NCBI GenBank assembly: GCA_019637115.1
Contig: JAHBWH010000012.1
Coordinates: 1 to 64,000 of the forward strand
Length of the DNA: 64,000 bases
Direction: 5' to 3'
Origin: Myxococcales bacterium
GTDB lineage: Bacteria > Myxococcota_A > Polyangia > Polyangiales > Houyiibacteriaceae
Under the pieces are notes generated by a model. The model did not search any database. It worked only from the letters and a program-made list of their open reading frames with translations, and was not told where the DNA came from. Of this stretch, positions 23,140 to 63,040 are shown piece by piece (positions within the stretch are counted from its first letter, which is position 1; each line of letters opens with the position of its first letter). Made by a program: the position numbers and the translations under genes.

Positions 23140-23154
23140 CAGCGTACTGTCCTC

Positions 23155-23334
23155 GCGTTAGTGGGCCTCGCGTTAGTGGGCCTCGCGTTAGTGGGCCTCG
23201 CGTTAGTGGGCCTCGCGTTAGTGGGCCTCGCGTTCGTGGGCCTCGCGTTCGTGGGCCTCGCGTTCGTGGGCCTCACATTCGTGGGCCTCGCGGTCGTGGG
23301 CCTCGCGGTCGTGGGCCTCGCGCTGGTAGCCCCC
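23155..23334. repeat. 15-bp tandem array upstream of the MBL-fold gene
   Basis: Eleven full copies and a degenerate twelfth of GCGTTAGTGGGCCTC lie head to tail. The five copies nearest the hydrolase gene are identical, the next three carry one change, and farther copies diverge, which suggests recent expansion from the gene-proximal end. The unit keeps reading frame (15 = 5 codons). Two other 15-bp arrays in the window end in GGCCT too. The remaining 300 bases to the methyltransferase gene (23335-23634) show no recognised gene or signal. Confidence 0.95.
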
Positions 23335-42959: not shown

Positions 42960-42982
42960 CGGGCCGTTCGCCATCAGAGCCT

Positions 42983-43087
42983 GACCGCGAAGGCCCGACC
43001 GCGAAGGCCCGACCGCGAAGGCCTGACCGCGAAGGCCTGACCGCGAAAGCCCGACCGCGAAAGCCTGACCGCGAAAGCCTGGCATAT
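42983..43087. repeat. 15-bp tandem array before the chemosensory operon
   Basis: Seven head-to-tail copies of GACCGCGAAGGCCYG occupy the start of the 321-base gap before the first cheY. Copies near the operon read AAAGCC in place of AAGGCC. The unit length and the GGCC core are like those of the arrays upstream of the MBL-fold gene and inside the kinase gene. The 190 bases between the array and the cheY start contain no recognised signal, but by position should hold the operon promoter. Confidence 0.93.
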
Positions 43088-56188: not shown

Positions 56189-57997
56189 ATGCTCTCTGAC
56201 GTGACGTCCGATCTGAGCGCTGTGCCTTCGCCTCTCGCGCGGGTGGAGATTCACGATGGAGCGGCCCTCGTGGTCGGCGCCTCTCCTCGCTTTCGCGCGA
56301 TGCTGGGCGATCGCCCGAGCGGGCGGCTCGGGGTCTCCGAAGGCACGTTCGTGGGGTGGGTGAGGCAGGCGCTGGCGGATGGGGAGCTGAGCGTCGACGC
56401 CCGCCTCGACGGAGGCGCCGTCCGCCTGCTCTTCGCGCGCGAGAGCGAGCGCGCTGCGCTGCTCGCGCTCGAGCCGCAGCCGAACACGCGCTTTCGCGAC
56501 ATCGTCGAGGAGTCGCCCGACATCATCGCGGTGATCGATCGCGAGCTACGGCACGTCTTCGTGAACCGCGCGATCACCGCCGCGACGGGGATGAGCCCCG
56601 CCGACTTCGAGGGGAAGACACACGCCGACCTCGGTATGCCCGAAGAGCTCGTTCGCTACTTCCAGGGTGTTTACCGCAAGGTCTTCGAGACCGGACAGGA
56701 GGGCGCGAAGGACTTCTCCTTCCAGACGCCTTCGGGCGAGACCCGCGAGTACTCCTCGCGCGTCGTGCCGCTGCGCGAGCCCGACGGACGCATCGAGGTC
56801 TTGCTCTCGTACGCGCGCGACTCCACCGAGCGCAACCGCGCTCAGGCCGATCGGCTCGCGCTCGAGCGCAAGCTCCAGGAGACGCAGCGGCTCGAGAGCC
56901 TCGGCCTGCTCGCGGGCGGGATCGCGCACGACTTCAACAACCTCCTGACCACCATCCTCGGCACCGCGTCGCTCGTACGCGTCGCGTCGGGCGTGACGGG
57001 GGACGTCCACCTGGCGCTCGGACAGATCGAGCAAGCGGCGATGCGGGCCGCCGATCTCTGCTTGCAGATGCTCGCGTACGCGGGGCTGCGGCAGCGTCAC
57101 GAGGAGCCCGTCGCGATCGGGCCGCTCGTGCGGGACGTCGTCGACCTCGTCGGCGCGTCGGGCTCGAAGAACGCGACGATCGAGGTGCACGTCGCGCCCG
57201 ATCTCCCGTGGGCGCATGCGGACCGGAGCCAGGTGCAGCAGGTCGTCATGAACTTCGTGCTCAACGGCCTCGAGGCGTTGCCCGCTGGCGCGGGTTCCTT
57301 GCGCGTCGACGTCCGCGCGGTGGACGCGGCGGACGTCGACTGGTCGGAGGCGGTGGTGGTGCCCACCGATGCGACGGGCGCGCTCGTCGAGATCGTCGTG
57401 CGAGACGACGGCGCAGGCATGGACGCGGCGACGCTCGCGCGTGTCTTCGATCCCTTCTTCACGACGAAGTTCGCGGGGCGCGGGCTCGGCCTGGCGGCGA
57501 CGTTGGGCATCGTCCGCGGTCACGGCGGCGGGCTCGCGGTGCAGAGCGCGCCAGGCGAAGGCACGACGTTCACCGTCTGGCTCCGCGCGGCTGCGCCTCG
57601 CCCGGCGGAGGAGCGCGTCACCGCGGACGCCGCGCCCCCCTCTCGGGTGCTCCTCGTCGACGACGAGGACTCGGTGCGAAACGTGACGTCGATGTTGCTC
57701 ATCTCTGCCGGCCACTCCGTGACCGCATGTGGAGGTGGGGCCGAGGCCCTCGAGCGCTTCGAAGAGGCACGCCCCGATCTCGTGCTGCTCGACCTCACGA
57801 TGCCCGGAATCGACGGCCTCGAGACCCTGGAGCGCCTGCGACAGCGGGGCGTGACGACGCCGGTCGTGCTTATGAGCGGCTACGGCGAGGAGCGCCTTCA
57901 AGGGTTGCTCGCGCGAGATCCCGCGACGCGTTTCCTCCAGAAGCCGTTCAGCTACGAGGATCTGCAGGGCTTACTGCACGAGATGCTCGTCGGTTGA
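56189..57997 (+). CDS. PAS hybrid sensor histidine kinase with C-terminal receiver
   Basis: This 602-residue cytoplasmic hybrid kinase has a PAS domain at about 100-215 (RFRDIVEESPDIIAVIDREL), the phospho-His247 in GGIAHDFNNLLTTILG, an HATPase domain with NGLEALP, DDGAGM and GRGLGLAATLGIV, and a receiver at about 485-600 (VLLVDDEDSVRN, VLLDLTMPGIDG, LQKPF). Such kinases are frequent in myxobacteria and feed phosphotransfer relays. No output domain and no partner gene next to it. The first 95 residues are an unassigned second sensor-like domain. The start is the ATG at 56189. Confidence 0.93.
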   Translation: MLSDVTSDLSAVPSPLARVEIHDGAALVVGASPRFRAMLGDRPSGRLGVSEGTFVGWVRQALADGELSVDARLDGGAVRLLFARESERAALLALEPQPNTRFRDIVEESPDIIAVIDRELRHVFVNRAITAATGMSPADFEGKTHADLGMPEELVRYFQGVYRKVFETGQEGAKDFSFQTPSGETREYSSRVVPLREPDGRIEVLLSYARDSTERNRAQADRLALERKLQETQRLESLGLLAGGIAHDFNNLLTTILGTASLVRVASGVTGDVHLALGQIEQAAMRAADLCLQMLAYAGLRQRHEEPVAIGPLVRDVVDLVGASGSKNATIEVHVAPDLPWAHADRSQVQQVVMNFVLNGLEALPAGAGSLRVDVRAVDAADVDWSEAVVVPTDATGALVEIVVRDDGAGMDAATLARVFDPFFTTKFAGRGLGLAATLGIVRGHGGGLAVQSAPGEGTTFTVWLRAAAPRPAEERVTADAAPPSRVLLVDDEDSVRNVTSMLLISAGHSVTACGGGAEALERFEEARPDLVLLDLTMPGIDGLETLERLRQRGVTTPVVLMSGYGEERLQGLLARDPATRFLQKPFSYEDLQGLLHEMLVG

Positions 57998-59020: not shown

Positions 59021-59926
59021 TCAGTCGACGTCGTCGTCCTTGACGGCGCGGTTGAGCGCTTCGTCGCACGCCCGCTTCATCTCGAGGCAATTCTCGTAGC
59101 GCTCCTCGGGCGCGCGCGCGCAGGCGCGGAGCACGAGCTCGTCGACGTACGCAGGGATCTTCGGGCGCAACAGGCTCGGGGGGGCGGGCACCTTCGTCAG
59201 CACCGCCTGCAGCGTGTGCTCGATGCGCCGGTGGGATTGCACCCAGGGCACGCCGACCAGCGCCTCGTAGAGGGTGGCGCCGATGCCGTAGACGTCGCTG
59301 CGAGGGTCGGCTGGTTTGCCGAGCAGGACCTCGGGCGCGAGGTAGCTCGGGGTGCCCATCACGCGCCCCGGCTCGGTGATCTGGTCGACGTCCTGGAACG
59401 ACTTGCTCATGCCGAAGTCGATCAGCTTCGCGGTGATGCCGAGCGCGCGGATGAGGATCACGTTGGCGGGCTTGAGATCGCGGTGGACGATGCCCGTCGC
59501 GTGCACCGCTTCGGCGGCGGCGCAGAGCTGGCTCGCGAGCGAGCAGGCGTCGGCCACCTTCAGCACGCCGAGCGTGTGGATGCGGCGATGGAGCGACACT
59601 CCGTCGAGCAGCTCCATCACGAGGAAGGGGCGGGTCTCGTCATAGAAGCCCGCGTCGAGGACCTTCACCACGTGCGGGTGTCCGACGCTGGCCGCGAGGC
59701 GCGCTTCGCGGAGGAAACGCTCGCGCTTGCTGCCATGGTCGAGCGAGCGCGGCAGCACCTTCACCGCGACCGGCCGGTCGGTGTCGACGTCGCGCCCGAC
59801 GTAGACGACGCCGACGCCTCCGCGGGCGAGCAAGCCGTCGAGGCGGTAGCGACCGCCGAGACGCGCGCCGACCGGGGGCAGCTCCGATTGGGGCTCGAAT
59901 GCCATGACGTCGGTGGGGTCTATCAT
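59021..59926 (-). CDS. Ser/Thr protein kinase (Pkn2 type, short)
   Basis: This 301-residue protein is a kinase domain with little else and no transmembrane segment, so it is cytoplasmic. The glycine loop is LLARGGVGVVYVGRDVD, the Lys is in VAVKVLP, the catalytic loop is HRDLKPANV, and the metal site is DFGMSK. APE, DVYGIGATLYEAL and ending EERYEN complete the fold. A short acidic tail (VKDDDVD) follows. The ATG with GAGG upstream was chosen. It converges on the upstream lipoprotein gene with the MITE in between. Confidence 0.92.
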   Translation of the reverse strand: MIDPTDVMAFEPQSELPPVGARLGGRYRLDGLLARGGVGVVYVGRDVDTDRPVAVKVLPRSLDHGSKRERFLREARLAASVGHPHVVKVLDAGFYDETRPFLVMELLDGVSLHRRIHTLGVLKVADACSLASQLCAAAEAVHATGIVHRDLKPANVILIRALGITAKLIDFGMSKSFQDVDQITEPGRVMGTPSYLAPEVLLGKPADPRSDVYGIGATLYEALVGVPWVQSHRRIEHTLQAVLTKVPAPPSLLRPKIPAYVDELVLRACARAPEERYENCLEMKRACDEALNRAVKDDDVD

Positions 59927-60089
59927 GAAATGCGAACCTCGTTCGCCTCGGGTGTGAGGTGGCGCGTGAGCCGAGGGCAGTATGGTAAGCGCGCACGGCT
60001 CCCGCCGTCGGGCGACGGCTGACGCCACGGCGCGCGCGAAGCGTCCCGCGATCGCGGTCACTGTCCCTCAGGCACCGCGGTGGAGGCGG

Positions 60090-60665
60090 CTACTCGCGGA
60101 AACGCGGGCGCGCGTGGACCTCTCGCAGCGCCGCCTCGCACGGGCGCGCGGCCTCGGTGTCCCACGCCGAGAGCGGCGTCGCGTGATCGCACGACAGGTC
60201 CGGGAGCCGGAGCTGCAGCTGGATCCGTGGCCCGTCGCTCGGGCTGATCCACGCGCCGTCGGTGAAGAGCTCGCAGCACCTCGCCTCGCGCAGTCGGTCG
60301 CGGAGCGCCTCGAGCTCTCTCGGTGGCAAGCTGCGATCGACCCGCACCTCGTGGCCGTCTCGCGCGCGGGCAAGGAAGCTCGCCTCGCCATCGCGACGCA
60401 CGGTGAAGCGCTCGACGCCCCACGCGTCGACCACGTCCCATCGGACCACGAGCCCCGTCGCTCCTCCTGGCGCTCCCCCAGGCGCTCCTCCGGTCGCGCC
60501 TCCAGGCGGGGCCTCCTCGCGCGCCTCCACGGAGTCGTCGATCGGCGGCGGCCACACGGCTCGCTCCCAGGCCGCGCTCCCCCCGTCTCCAGAGCCACAC
60601 GCCGCGACCAGGGTCACGAGGAGCGCCTCTGCCGAGGCTCGGCGTGCCGACGACCGTCGTCCCAT
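60090..60665 (-). CDS. Predicted lipoprotein coupled to the kinase fusion gene
   Basis: This 191-residue protein has a lipobox (LLVTLVAAC-GSG), a low-complexity linker with GATGGAPGGAPGGATG repeats and an unassigned C-terminal domain with two Cys (RCCELF, LPDLSCDHAT, PCEAALRE). Its ATG overlaps the stop codon of the kinase fusion gene (TGATG), so they are translationally coupled and probably functionally linked. Function unknown. The gap after it to the next kinase gene (163 bases) shows no feature. Confidence 0.65.
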   Translation of the reverse strand: MGRRSSARRASAEALLVTLVAACGSGDGGSAAWERAVWPPPIDDSVEAREEAPPGGATGGAPGGAPGGATGLVVRWDVVDAWGVERFTVRRDGEASFLARARDGHEVRVDRSLPPRELEALRDRLREARCCELFTDGAWISPSDGPRIQLQLRLPDLSCDHATPLSAWDTEAARPCEAALREVHARPRFRE

Positions 60666-63040
60666 CACTCCGTCGCGTCGTCGAGGCCGTTCCCGACCTC
60701 CCCGACGTCCCCGACCTCCCCGACCTCCCGCACGACCTCCCCGTTCGCGCCGCCGAGGTCCTGCCGCGCGCGGCGCGCCGCCCGCTCCGAGGCTCGCCGC
60801 GCCGTGATCGCCTCCTCGAGCTGCGACTCGAGCGCGCTCGCGCGGGCGTCGGCGGCGGCGCGACGCGCGCGCTCGATCCCGAGCTGCGTCTCGACACGGT
60901 CGCGCTCGGCCTCGAGGTGATCGGCGCGCTCGCGGGCGCGTTGGCGCGCCTGGCGCTCGCGCTCGAGCTCGCTGGCGAGCCCCTCACCGCGCTCGCGGGC
61001 GGCGGCGAGCTCGAGCTGCCGGTCGCGGAGGCTCGCCTCGGCGGCGGCGCGCGCGGTCTCCTCGGCGCTCAGCCGGTCGCGCGCGCGGGTCAGCTGGCTC
61101 TCGGCGCGCTGGAGCGTGGCGCTCGCCTCGGCGAGTCGGCGCTCGAGCTCGGTGCGCCCGAGCCGCTCACGCTCGAGGCGCCCCCGGATGGCCTCCGCGT
61201 CCGCTGCGAGCTGCCGCTGGGCGGTGCTCATGGCCTCGAGGTCCTGTCGCGCCGCCGCGACGCGCTCGGCCGCGGCGTGGGTCTCCTCCGCGGCGACGGC
61301 GCGGGTGTGGAGGACCGCGGCCGTCGCCCCCGCGCCCAGCAGGGCGACGAGCGGGAGCAGCCACCGCCAGAGCGCCCAGCGACGTCGGCGTCGGTCCTCG
61401 GGGGCGGTGAGGACGCCGAGCTCGATCGCGAGCTCCTCGGCGGTCGGGCGCGCGTCGGGGTCGAGGTTGAGCCAGCGGGCGAAGCTCGGGTGCAGGTAGC
61501 GGAGGCCACGCGCGACCGGGAAGTCGGGGCGCTCGATCGCGCGGCGCTCGATGAAGCTCTCGATCGCTCCCGCCGGGACGTCCTCTTCGGTCTCGGGCTC
61601 GAGCGCGTTGCGGAGGGCGAGCGCGAGGCTGAAGACGTCGGCTTTCGAGGTGACGCGCGGCTTCTGGGTGACGCCGCTCGCGAACTGCGCGGCGACCTCG
61701 GGAGCGAAGTACGTGGGCGTGCCGGCGACGAGCATCTCCGCCTCGGTGGCCGCGACCCCGAGGTCGATGAGGATGGGGAGCACGCGCTCTCCGCCGAAGC
61801 CGGGGACCTCCGCGAGGAAGACGTTCTCCGGTTTGACGTCCTGATGCCGCAGGCCGGCGGCGTGGACGGCCGCGAGCGCGCGCGCCAGCGGCTCGAAGAT
61901 CCGTCGCGCCTCGGCGCGACCGAGGCCGCCGCGCTGCAGGCGCGACTCCAGCGTCTCGCCGTCGTACCACGGCATCACGAACCAGAGCCGACCGTCGAAC
62001 CAGCCGTGATCCTTGAGCGAGACGACGCTCGGATGGAAGACGCTCGCCAGGTGTCGGAGCTCGCGCAGGGCGGTCTGACGCGCCTGCCCGGAGTAGGCGG
62101 GCTGGTGCAGGAGCTTGAGCGCCACGACGTGGCCGGGGACCTCGACGTCCTCCGCGCGGTAGACGTCGCCGAAGGCCCCCGTGCCGACGCGGCATTGGAT
62201 CCGGTAGCGATCGGCGACGAGCGCGCCCGGCGCGAGGGGCTCGGGCCCGGCGAGCAGCGCCTCGTCCCGCGACGTCCCCCCGCGGCGGAGCGCGAACGCC
62301 TCCAACAAGAGCGCGCGCAGGCGGCCGTCGGCCTCGGACGCGCGCGAAGCTCGGGCGTCCTCGTGCACCAAGTGCGCGGCGCGCTCGGTCGCGGTCGCTA
62401 GGGCCACGAGCACGTCCTCGACCGGCAGGTCGACGACGTGGGCGATCTCGATGGGGCGGAGCTCCCGCGCGTAGCGGAGCTCGAGCAGCTCCGCCTCGGC
62501 GTGCTCGAGCGACTCCCGGAGGGCCACCAGCTTCCCCTGCTGGTGCGTGTCCTTCGCGTCGCGCCACGGGAGGGGGACGTCGGCGCCGGCCCCGCGCGAA
62601 CCGGCCTCGCACGATCCGGCCTCGCGCGAACCGGCCTCGCGCGAACCGGCCTGGCGAGACCCGGCCTGGCGGGACGAGGGGTCGAGCTCCCAGCGCCACG
62701 CGATGTCGCGCGCGATGCGGTAGAGGCGGGCGCGTACGCCCGGGGCCTGGACGAGCTCGTCGGTCCCGCACGCGGCCACGACGATCCGGACCTGCCGGAA
62801 CGCCCGCGCCGCGTCACGAATGGAGCCGAGGCGGATCGCGAGGTATTGCTCGAGCCCCTCGGCGTAGTGGCTCAACGCGCGCGCGTGCAGGACGTCGACG
62901 ACGGTGTGGGCGCGGCCCGCGGCCGTGATGCTCCGCGCGGCGCGGTCGAGGAGGGCGTCACCCTCCTCGAAGCGCTCGCTCGGAACGGGTACGCCCGCGA
63001 CGGGCGGCGCAATCACGGTCCCCGAGCTACTCGACGCCAT
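60665..63040 (-). CDS. Sigma-like / Ser/Thr kinase / coiled-coil fusion protein
   Basis: This is a 791-residue protein. Residues about 50-117 (VVDVLHARALSHYAEGLEQY, LYRIARDIAWRWE) look like sigma-factor region 2, and about 170-226 (LLELRYARELRPIEIAHVVD, LPVEDVLVALATATERA) like region 4; the two are split by a 15-bp-repeat linker of GSREA units. A kinase domain at 277-545 has GTGAFGDVYRAE, Lys309, HQDVKPEN (HRD changed to HQD at 399-401), DLG in place of DFG (426-428) and APE. One transmembrane helix (555-580) and a long Arg/Glu coiled coil end the protein. The sigma resemblance is by eye. Confidence 0.72.
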   Translation of the reverse strand: MASSSSGTVIAPPVAGVPVPSERFEEGDALLDRAARSITAAGRAHTVVDVLHARALSHYAEGLEQYLAIRLGSIRDAARAFRQVRIVVAACGTDELVQAPGVRARLYRIARDIAWRWELDPSSRQAGSRQAGSREAGSREAGSCEAGSRGAGADVPLPWRDAKDTHQQGKLVALRESLEHAEAELLELRYARELRPIEIAHVVDLPVEDVLVALATATERAAHLVHEDARASRASEADGRLRALLLEAFALRRGGTSRDEALLAGPEPLAPGALVADRYRIQCRVGTGAFGDVYRAEDVEVPGHVVALKLLHQPAYSGQARQTALRELRHLASVFHPSVVSLKDHGWFDGRLWFVMPWYDGETLESRLQRGGLGRAEARRIFEPLARALAAVHAAGLRHQDVKPENVFLAEVPGFGGERVLPILIDLGVAATEAEMLVAGTPTYFAPEVAAQFASGVTQKPRVTSKADVFSLALALRNALEPETEEDVPAGAIESFIERRAIERPDFPVARGLRYLHPSFARWLNLDPDARPTAEELAIELGVLTAPEDRRRRRWALWRWLLPLVALLGAGATAAVLHTRAVAAEETHAAAERVAAARQDLEAMSTAQRQLAADAEAIRGRLERERLGRTELERRLAEASATLQRAESQLTRARDRLSAEETARAAAEASLRDRQLELAAARERGEGLASELERERQARQRARERADHLEAERDRVETQLGIERARRAAADARASALESQLEEAITARRASERAARRARQDLGGANGEVVREVGEVGDVGEVGNGLDDATE
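62594..62668. repeat. In-frame 15-bp tandem array in the kinase fusion gene
   Basis: Five copies of GCGCGAACCGGCCTC-type units code on the minus strand for repeats of Gly-Ser-Arg-Glu-Ala. They form the linker between the two sigma-like parts. Unit length of five codons keeps the frame with any copy number. The unit shares GGCCT and size with the two intergenic 15-bp arrays. Confidence 0.92.

Follow-up and report, generated by a model that had tools for sequence, protein, structure and literature searches.

The DNA analyzed, hereafter the window, is a 64,000-nucleotide stretch from a Myxococcales bacterium (contig JAHBWH010000012.1, positions 1 to 64,000). Near its end lies a minus-strand gene that starts with ATG at 63040, preceded by GGAGG, and encodes a protein of 791 aa, in which an N-terminal sigma-like domain (residues ∼28–250) and a kinase domain (residues ∼278–545) are followed by a transmembrane helix and a coiled coil (Table 1). 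The initial annotation had placed a GSREA linker in frame between two sigma-like parts, and this linker was recovered as a tandem repeat of period 15 bp (5.7 copies, 88%; TRF); the repeat was present in none of the relatives aligned, which carry other linkers at this position. A lipoprotein-like frame of 192 aa overlaps the stop codon of the kinase gene (TGATG). Translational coupling of the two genes had been proposed, and the overlap of the frames is indeed present, but it is a layout of this genome rather than a conserved feature, since homologues of the lipoprotein lie upstream of the fusion gene, in varying orientation, and among the loci fetched were found beside it only in two relatives (L032 and L035). 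Just past the lipoprotein frame, and likewise on the minus strand, is a second Ser/Thr kinase gene (59021–60061), of the HRD type and with a Pkinase match at E 8e-44.

Table 1 Features of the fusion gene, its neighbor, and a gene pair seen in related loci. Positions are those of the window unless a locus is named.
Feature	Position	Strand	Basis or remark
Whole gene, 791 aa	60665..63040	−	pseudo-sigma domain, Hanks-type kinase, TM helix, coiled coil; same order in ∼50 relatives
Sigma region 2-like part, residues ∼46–118	62687..62905	−	hhalign, VIA-align, residue loss
GSREA linker between the two sigma-like parts	62586..62671	−	15-bp tandem repeat; TRF
Sigma region 4-like part, residues ∼164–226	62363..62551	−	recognition helix acidic, not basic; hhalign, Pfam, charge
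Extra helix LLLEAFAL after region 4, residues 234–248	62297..62341	−	conserved; A1 alignment, models
Hanks-type Ser/Thr kinase domain, HQD and DLG	61406..62209	−	Pfam PF00069, E 4e-27; invariant catalytic residues
Single TM helix, residues ∼549–575	61316..61396	−	hydropathy peak; Arg-rich cytoplasmic side before it
Coiled coil, residues 583–762, predicted periplasmic	60755..61294	−	one 180-residue helix in model
Lipoprotein-like frame, neighbor only	60090..60668	−	overlaps kinase stop codon; homologues near fusion gene in L032 and L035 only
ECF sigma gene, then c19 (bactofilin-like repeats)	L033:1313-3789; L174:3218-5596	−; +	

The kinase was the sole Pfam match of the whole protein (Pkinase, residues 280–484). 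Lys309, Glu327, Asp401, Asn406, and Asp426 were invariant among 28 relatives, so that the Hanks catalytic set is complete. As had been read from the sequence, HQD stands in place of HRD and DLG in place of DFG; Gln400 of the HQD motif was invariant in the 28 relatives (alignment A2), the Arg of the Hanks-kinase HRD motif thus being absent, and Leu at position 427 was nearly so. In a wider set of fused proteins, HQD was found in all except one (L056, with HRD), and DLG was usual. The HRD Arg is not common to all active kinases, and non-RD kinases can be active. With HQD in place of HRD, the fused kinase is a putatively active enzyme whose catalytic strength may be altered.

A hydropathy peak for the transmembrane helix was observed at the same place in nearly all relatives examined, following the kinase as in Hanks-type receptor kinases, and the C-terminal tail of the relatives had a median length of 219 aa. 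Because an Arg-rich stretch precedes the helix, the positive-inside rule for membrane topology predicts that the N-terminal domain and the kinase are cytoplasmic and that the coiled coil is periplasmic. The membrane helix and coiled coil initially described were both found, although the coiled coil comprises 180 residues in the model rather than 190. If fully helical, it would form a rod of ∼27 nm (180 residues × 1.5 Å, by arithmetic only), which could cross the periplasm. A cytoplasmic kinase, one transmembrane helix, and an extracytoplasmic part are shared with the Hanks receptor kinases PknB and PknS, from which the fused protein differs in its N-terminal pseudo-sigma domain, in HQD for HRD, and in having a coiled-coil rod rather than PASTA or a similar sensor.

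Two stretches preceding the kinase had been noted, by eye, to resemble sigma regions 2 and 4. Residues 27–264 alone gave weak NCBIfam matches, almost purely sigma-type (best E 2.8e-4), and Pfam returned neither Sigma70_r2 nor Sigma70_r4 above cut-off for the window protein. Among 28 members of the N-terminal domain family, whose alignment is referred to as A1, Pfam Sigma70_r4 was matched weakly in eight (best E 8.7e-5), and nearly all NCBIfam matches were to sigma families. When A1 was aligned by hhalign with 20 ECF sigmas of the window's own genome, the match had a probability of 95.9% and an E of 5.5e-9 over 141 columns covering both regions, as compared to a best E of 0.025 for 60 column-shuffled controls of the whole alignment against the same sigmas. 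The region 4 half carried this whole-domain match (E 5.7e-10 against the own-genome ECF sigmas), with no significant match of the region 2 half to these general ECF sigmas. Against 25 free-standing ECF sigmas linked to Ser/Thr kinases (STK-linked), A1 exhibited a better match than against the general set (E 1.4e-11), and here the region 2 half also reached significance (E 7.1e-5; best of 100 shuffles, 0.0034).

An AlphaFold model of the domain, derived from A1, was confident (pLDDT 86.5, pTM 0.80). Its best PDB matches in Foldseek (top E 3.3e-3, probability 1.00) were the ECF sigmas SigW, SigL, and RpoE, PhyR ranked lower, and sigma factors or PhyR made up nearly all of the 50 matches listed; the Foldseek E-values are modest, and the structural case lies in the uniformity of these matches together with the profile results. 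In VIA-align, RpoE in complex with NepR scored Z 13.8, SigW in complex with RsiW 12.6, CnrH 12.2, and PhyR 11.6 (10–11.6 across PhyR structures), scores that are to be read with the sequence evidence because helical folds reach such values more easily. The alignments ran through both sigma regions, including those with sigma 2 structures. The sigma resemblance of the N-terminal domain is therefore real, with a profile–profile E of 1e-11 and ECF sigmas and PhyR as best PDB matches. A chance match between unrelated helical domains would accord with the missing Pfam sigma match of the window protein alone and with the behavior of the region 2 half against general ECF sigmas, but it is extremely improbable given that regions 2 and 4 are collinear, that the shuffled controls were far weaker, and that the best PDB matches were all sigma-type.

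The domain is present in all 34 genomes of the window's family, and in the complete frames read the kinase then follows. The domain order was common to about 50 homologues, so that both the sigma-type match and its retention in relatives agree with what the initial annotation had put forward. In a sample of 379 genomes of the phylum, the domain occurred in 25, every one of which belongs to the same order as the window (myxobacteria close to Sandaracinus); relatives that have a name are myxobacterial, and several bear the label Sandaracinus, Sandaracinaceae, or Polyangiaceae. The free-standing proteins of sister families that A1 matched best were ECF sigmas of ∼200 residues, and searching with one of them led to a large ECF group, one member of which is encoded by the window's genome itself. 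At 12 of the 25 free-standing sigma loci read with flanks (L162 left out), a Ser/Thr kinase domain in the same orientation starts no more than 300 bp downstream, as compared to none of the 41 own-genome sigmas above cut-off, two of which had a kinase within 3 kb, among the kinase matches listed. The order of sigma then kinase in the free-standing pairs matches that of the fusion, which makes the joining of such a pair the simplest origin, and the protein probably arose by fusion of adjacent ECF sigma and kinase genes. The 51 fused kinases formed one clade (support 0.88) with no specific closeness, in this tree, to the kinases beside free-standing sigmas; that this very pair was fused is for this reason something we infer rather than observe.

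The residues by which sigma factors contact polymerase and promoter were compared between the fused family and free-standing sigmas, the loss of contacts described here being inferred from an alignment at 18–25% identity. In the 2.2 motif, Asp and Gln were each present in 18 of the 20 own-genome ECF sigmas, whereas the fused family exhibited no such consensus and carried Lys or Arg at the Glu site, the acidic motif that contacts the beta-prime clamp being replaced. The aromatic residue of region 2.3 was found in 0 of 54 fused proteins versus 25 of 25 free-standing relatives, and the mean charge of the recognition-helix stretch was −1.9 in the fused family versus +3.5 in ECF sigmas. At the 2.2 (DAED) site, no position had Ser or Thr in ≥40% of fused members. 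With the sigma fold kept and the polymerase and promoter contacts gone, transcription would not be expected to start from the fused domain, which is unlikely to work as a tethered sigma. The unusual layout of a membrane-tethered sigma that had been proposed thus stands in three respects, namely the sigma-like domain, the kinase joined to it, and the membrane tethering, but not as regards the working sigma that it implied, as polymerase, −10, and −35 contacts are lost.

A working sigma that is held at the membrane and either phosphorylated by its own kinase or released by proteolysis would be reminiscent of ECF43 sigmas or of IutY, respectively. Both sigma regions are present in the fold, the sister genes are sigma–kinase pairs, and ECF43 sigmas themselves have no acidic 2.2 motif yet become active when a neighboring Hanks kinase phosphorylates them (PMC8999054, PMC13147305). 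However, the fused family has Lys or Arg instead of a conserved Ser/Thr at 2.2, and phosphorylation at 2.2 would not replace the lost 2.3 aromatic and basic recognition helix. We regard a working sigma as decidedly unlikely, and less likely than a decoy or self-regulation (both considered below). ECF43-like phospho-activation of the fused domain in particular was rejected for lack of a conserved Ser/Thr acceptor at 2.2. Like the fused protein, ECF43 and other STK-linked ECF sigmas (EcfP/PknT, EcfK/PknS) combine an ECF sigma that has lost the acidic 2.2 motif with a Hanks-type receptor kinase; they are encoded by separate genes, keep a conserved 2.2 Thr, and are transcriptionally active, whereas the fused protein is one polypeptide with no such Thr and with its DNA contacts lost. 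IutY and the sigma/anti-sigma membrane hybrids (ECF243, ECF48, ECF52, and ECF53) likewise tether a sigma domain to the inner membrane within one polypeptide, but they have an anti-sigma part and are released by proteolysis, while the fused protein has a kinase part and has lost sigma residues. Among the free-standing relatives, loci L143–L148 and L154–L173 belong to the large myxobacterial ECF group, which is possibly regulated by phosphorylation and in which about half of the loci read have a Ser/Thr kinase gene immediately downstream.

Neighboring genes varied among the relatives' loci, where no conserved operon partner was found; small groups of relatives share a PP2C-type phosphatase, a transporter-like protein, or lipoproteins. 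In two genomes of one sister family (L124 and L129), the gene directly downstream of the fusion gene encodes the PP2C-type phosphatase. In three close relatives (L032, L033, and L035), the fusion gene is preceded on its own strand by genes for an ECF sigma and a membrane protein, c19; the window's genome has this pair on a different contig (contig 33). Pfam gave only a weak bactofilin match for c19. As a universal partner c19 was rejected, being absent from most family genomes that carry the fusion; this absence and the weak bactofilin match make it a lead rather than a partner.

These loci bear on a PhyR-like reading, in which the kinase, once activated, would expose the pseudo-sigma domain, which would capture an anti-sigma and thereby free a true ECF sigma, with a Ser/Thr kinase taking the place of a histidine kinase. 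The sigma-like domain of PhyR likewise keeps its fold while its core and promoter contacts are degenerate, and it titrates an anti-sigma (PMC8103513). Structures of PhyR rank high among the matches to the fold, and in the three close relatives c19 would be a candidate anti-sigma. On the other hand, c19 has the weak Pfam match and the distribution given above, and the presumed ancestors of the domain pair with kinases, not anti-sigmas. A decoy of this kind appears unlikely; so does a class of envelope signaling in which a kinase with its own sigma decoy, triggered via a periplasm-spanning rod, would free ECF sigmas. PhyR, which belongs to the alphaproteobacterial general stress response, resembles the fused protein in having an N-terminal ECF sigma fold with degenerate contacts as part of a phosphorylation-controlled protein. 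It differs in being soluble with a C-terminal receiver, where the fused protein has a Ser/Thr kinase, a transmembrane helix, and a coiled coil, and no NepR was seen. If the decoy reading were true, mimicry of a sigma would have an evolutionary origin independent of PhyR, under Ser/Thr control.

Alternatively, the domain may serve the kinase alone, as an arm for structure or autoregulation (dimerization or self-inhibition) with no tie to transcription. Its mean identity among relatives (39–46%) is below that of the kinase (65%), the relatives' loci show no conserved sigma or anti-sigma neighbor, and the conserved extra helix LLLEAFAL joins the domain to the kinase. Three patches of the domain are nevertheless strongly conserved in A1 (EGLRQYLAIR, PPGxRARLY, and ELLELRxAREL), which suggests a binding surface, whether for a partner or for the protein itself. 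We hold an arm of this type to be rather doubtful, on a par with the decoy.

Our preferred reading, to which we assign a probability of roughly 0.6, is that the protein is a receptor-type Hanks kinase bearing a degenerate ECF sigma (regions 2 and 4) as a cytoplasmic protein-binding module. The decoy and self-regulation are special cases that are not separable by computation, and the confidences given here overlap, as the readings are not mutually exclusive. In the binding-module reading, a signal reaching the periplasmic coiled coil would alter the activity of the kinase, the rod serving to sense or to anchor, and the pseudo-sigma domain would recruit a partner to the kinase, be it an anti-sigma, a sigma, or some other substrate, or would instead retain that partner at the membrane. 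The protein thus looks like a Hanks receptor kinase whose regulatory domain was made from a sigma factor, in a conserved myxobacterial design. Fused ECF regulators (with SnoaL, WD40, or anti-sigma parts) and STK-linked ECF sigmas have been described in the literature; no description of a sigma–kinase fusion was found in the open-access literature searched, most subscription journals lying outside it, and an earlier description is possible. The free-standing pairs and the fused proteins together offer a testable series from a working sigma–kinase pair to a pseudo-sigma receptor.

Further features of the window and its genome were observed in passing. In the genome (G000, an 8.9 Mb assembly), matches above cut-off numbered at least 150 for protein kinase domains and 41 for sigmas. 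The plus strand at 56189–57997 encodes what looks, from its sequence only, like a sensor histidine kinase of the PAS type whose C-terminal part is receiver-like. Repeats of 15 bp recur in the window, another being found at 23151–23322 (11.5 copies, 96% match), and a tandem repeat with a 14-bp unit lies at 42979–43081 (7.4 copies, 94% match), which would shift any coding frame because 14 is not a multiple of three.
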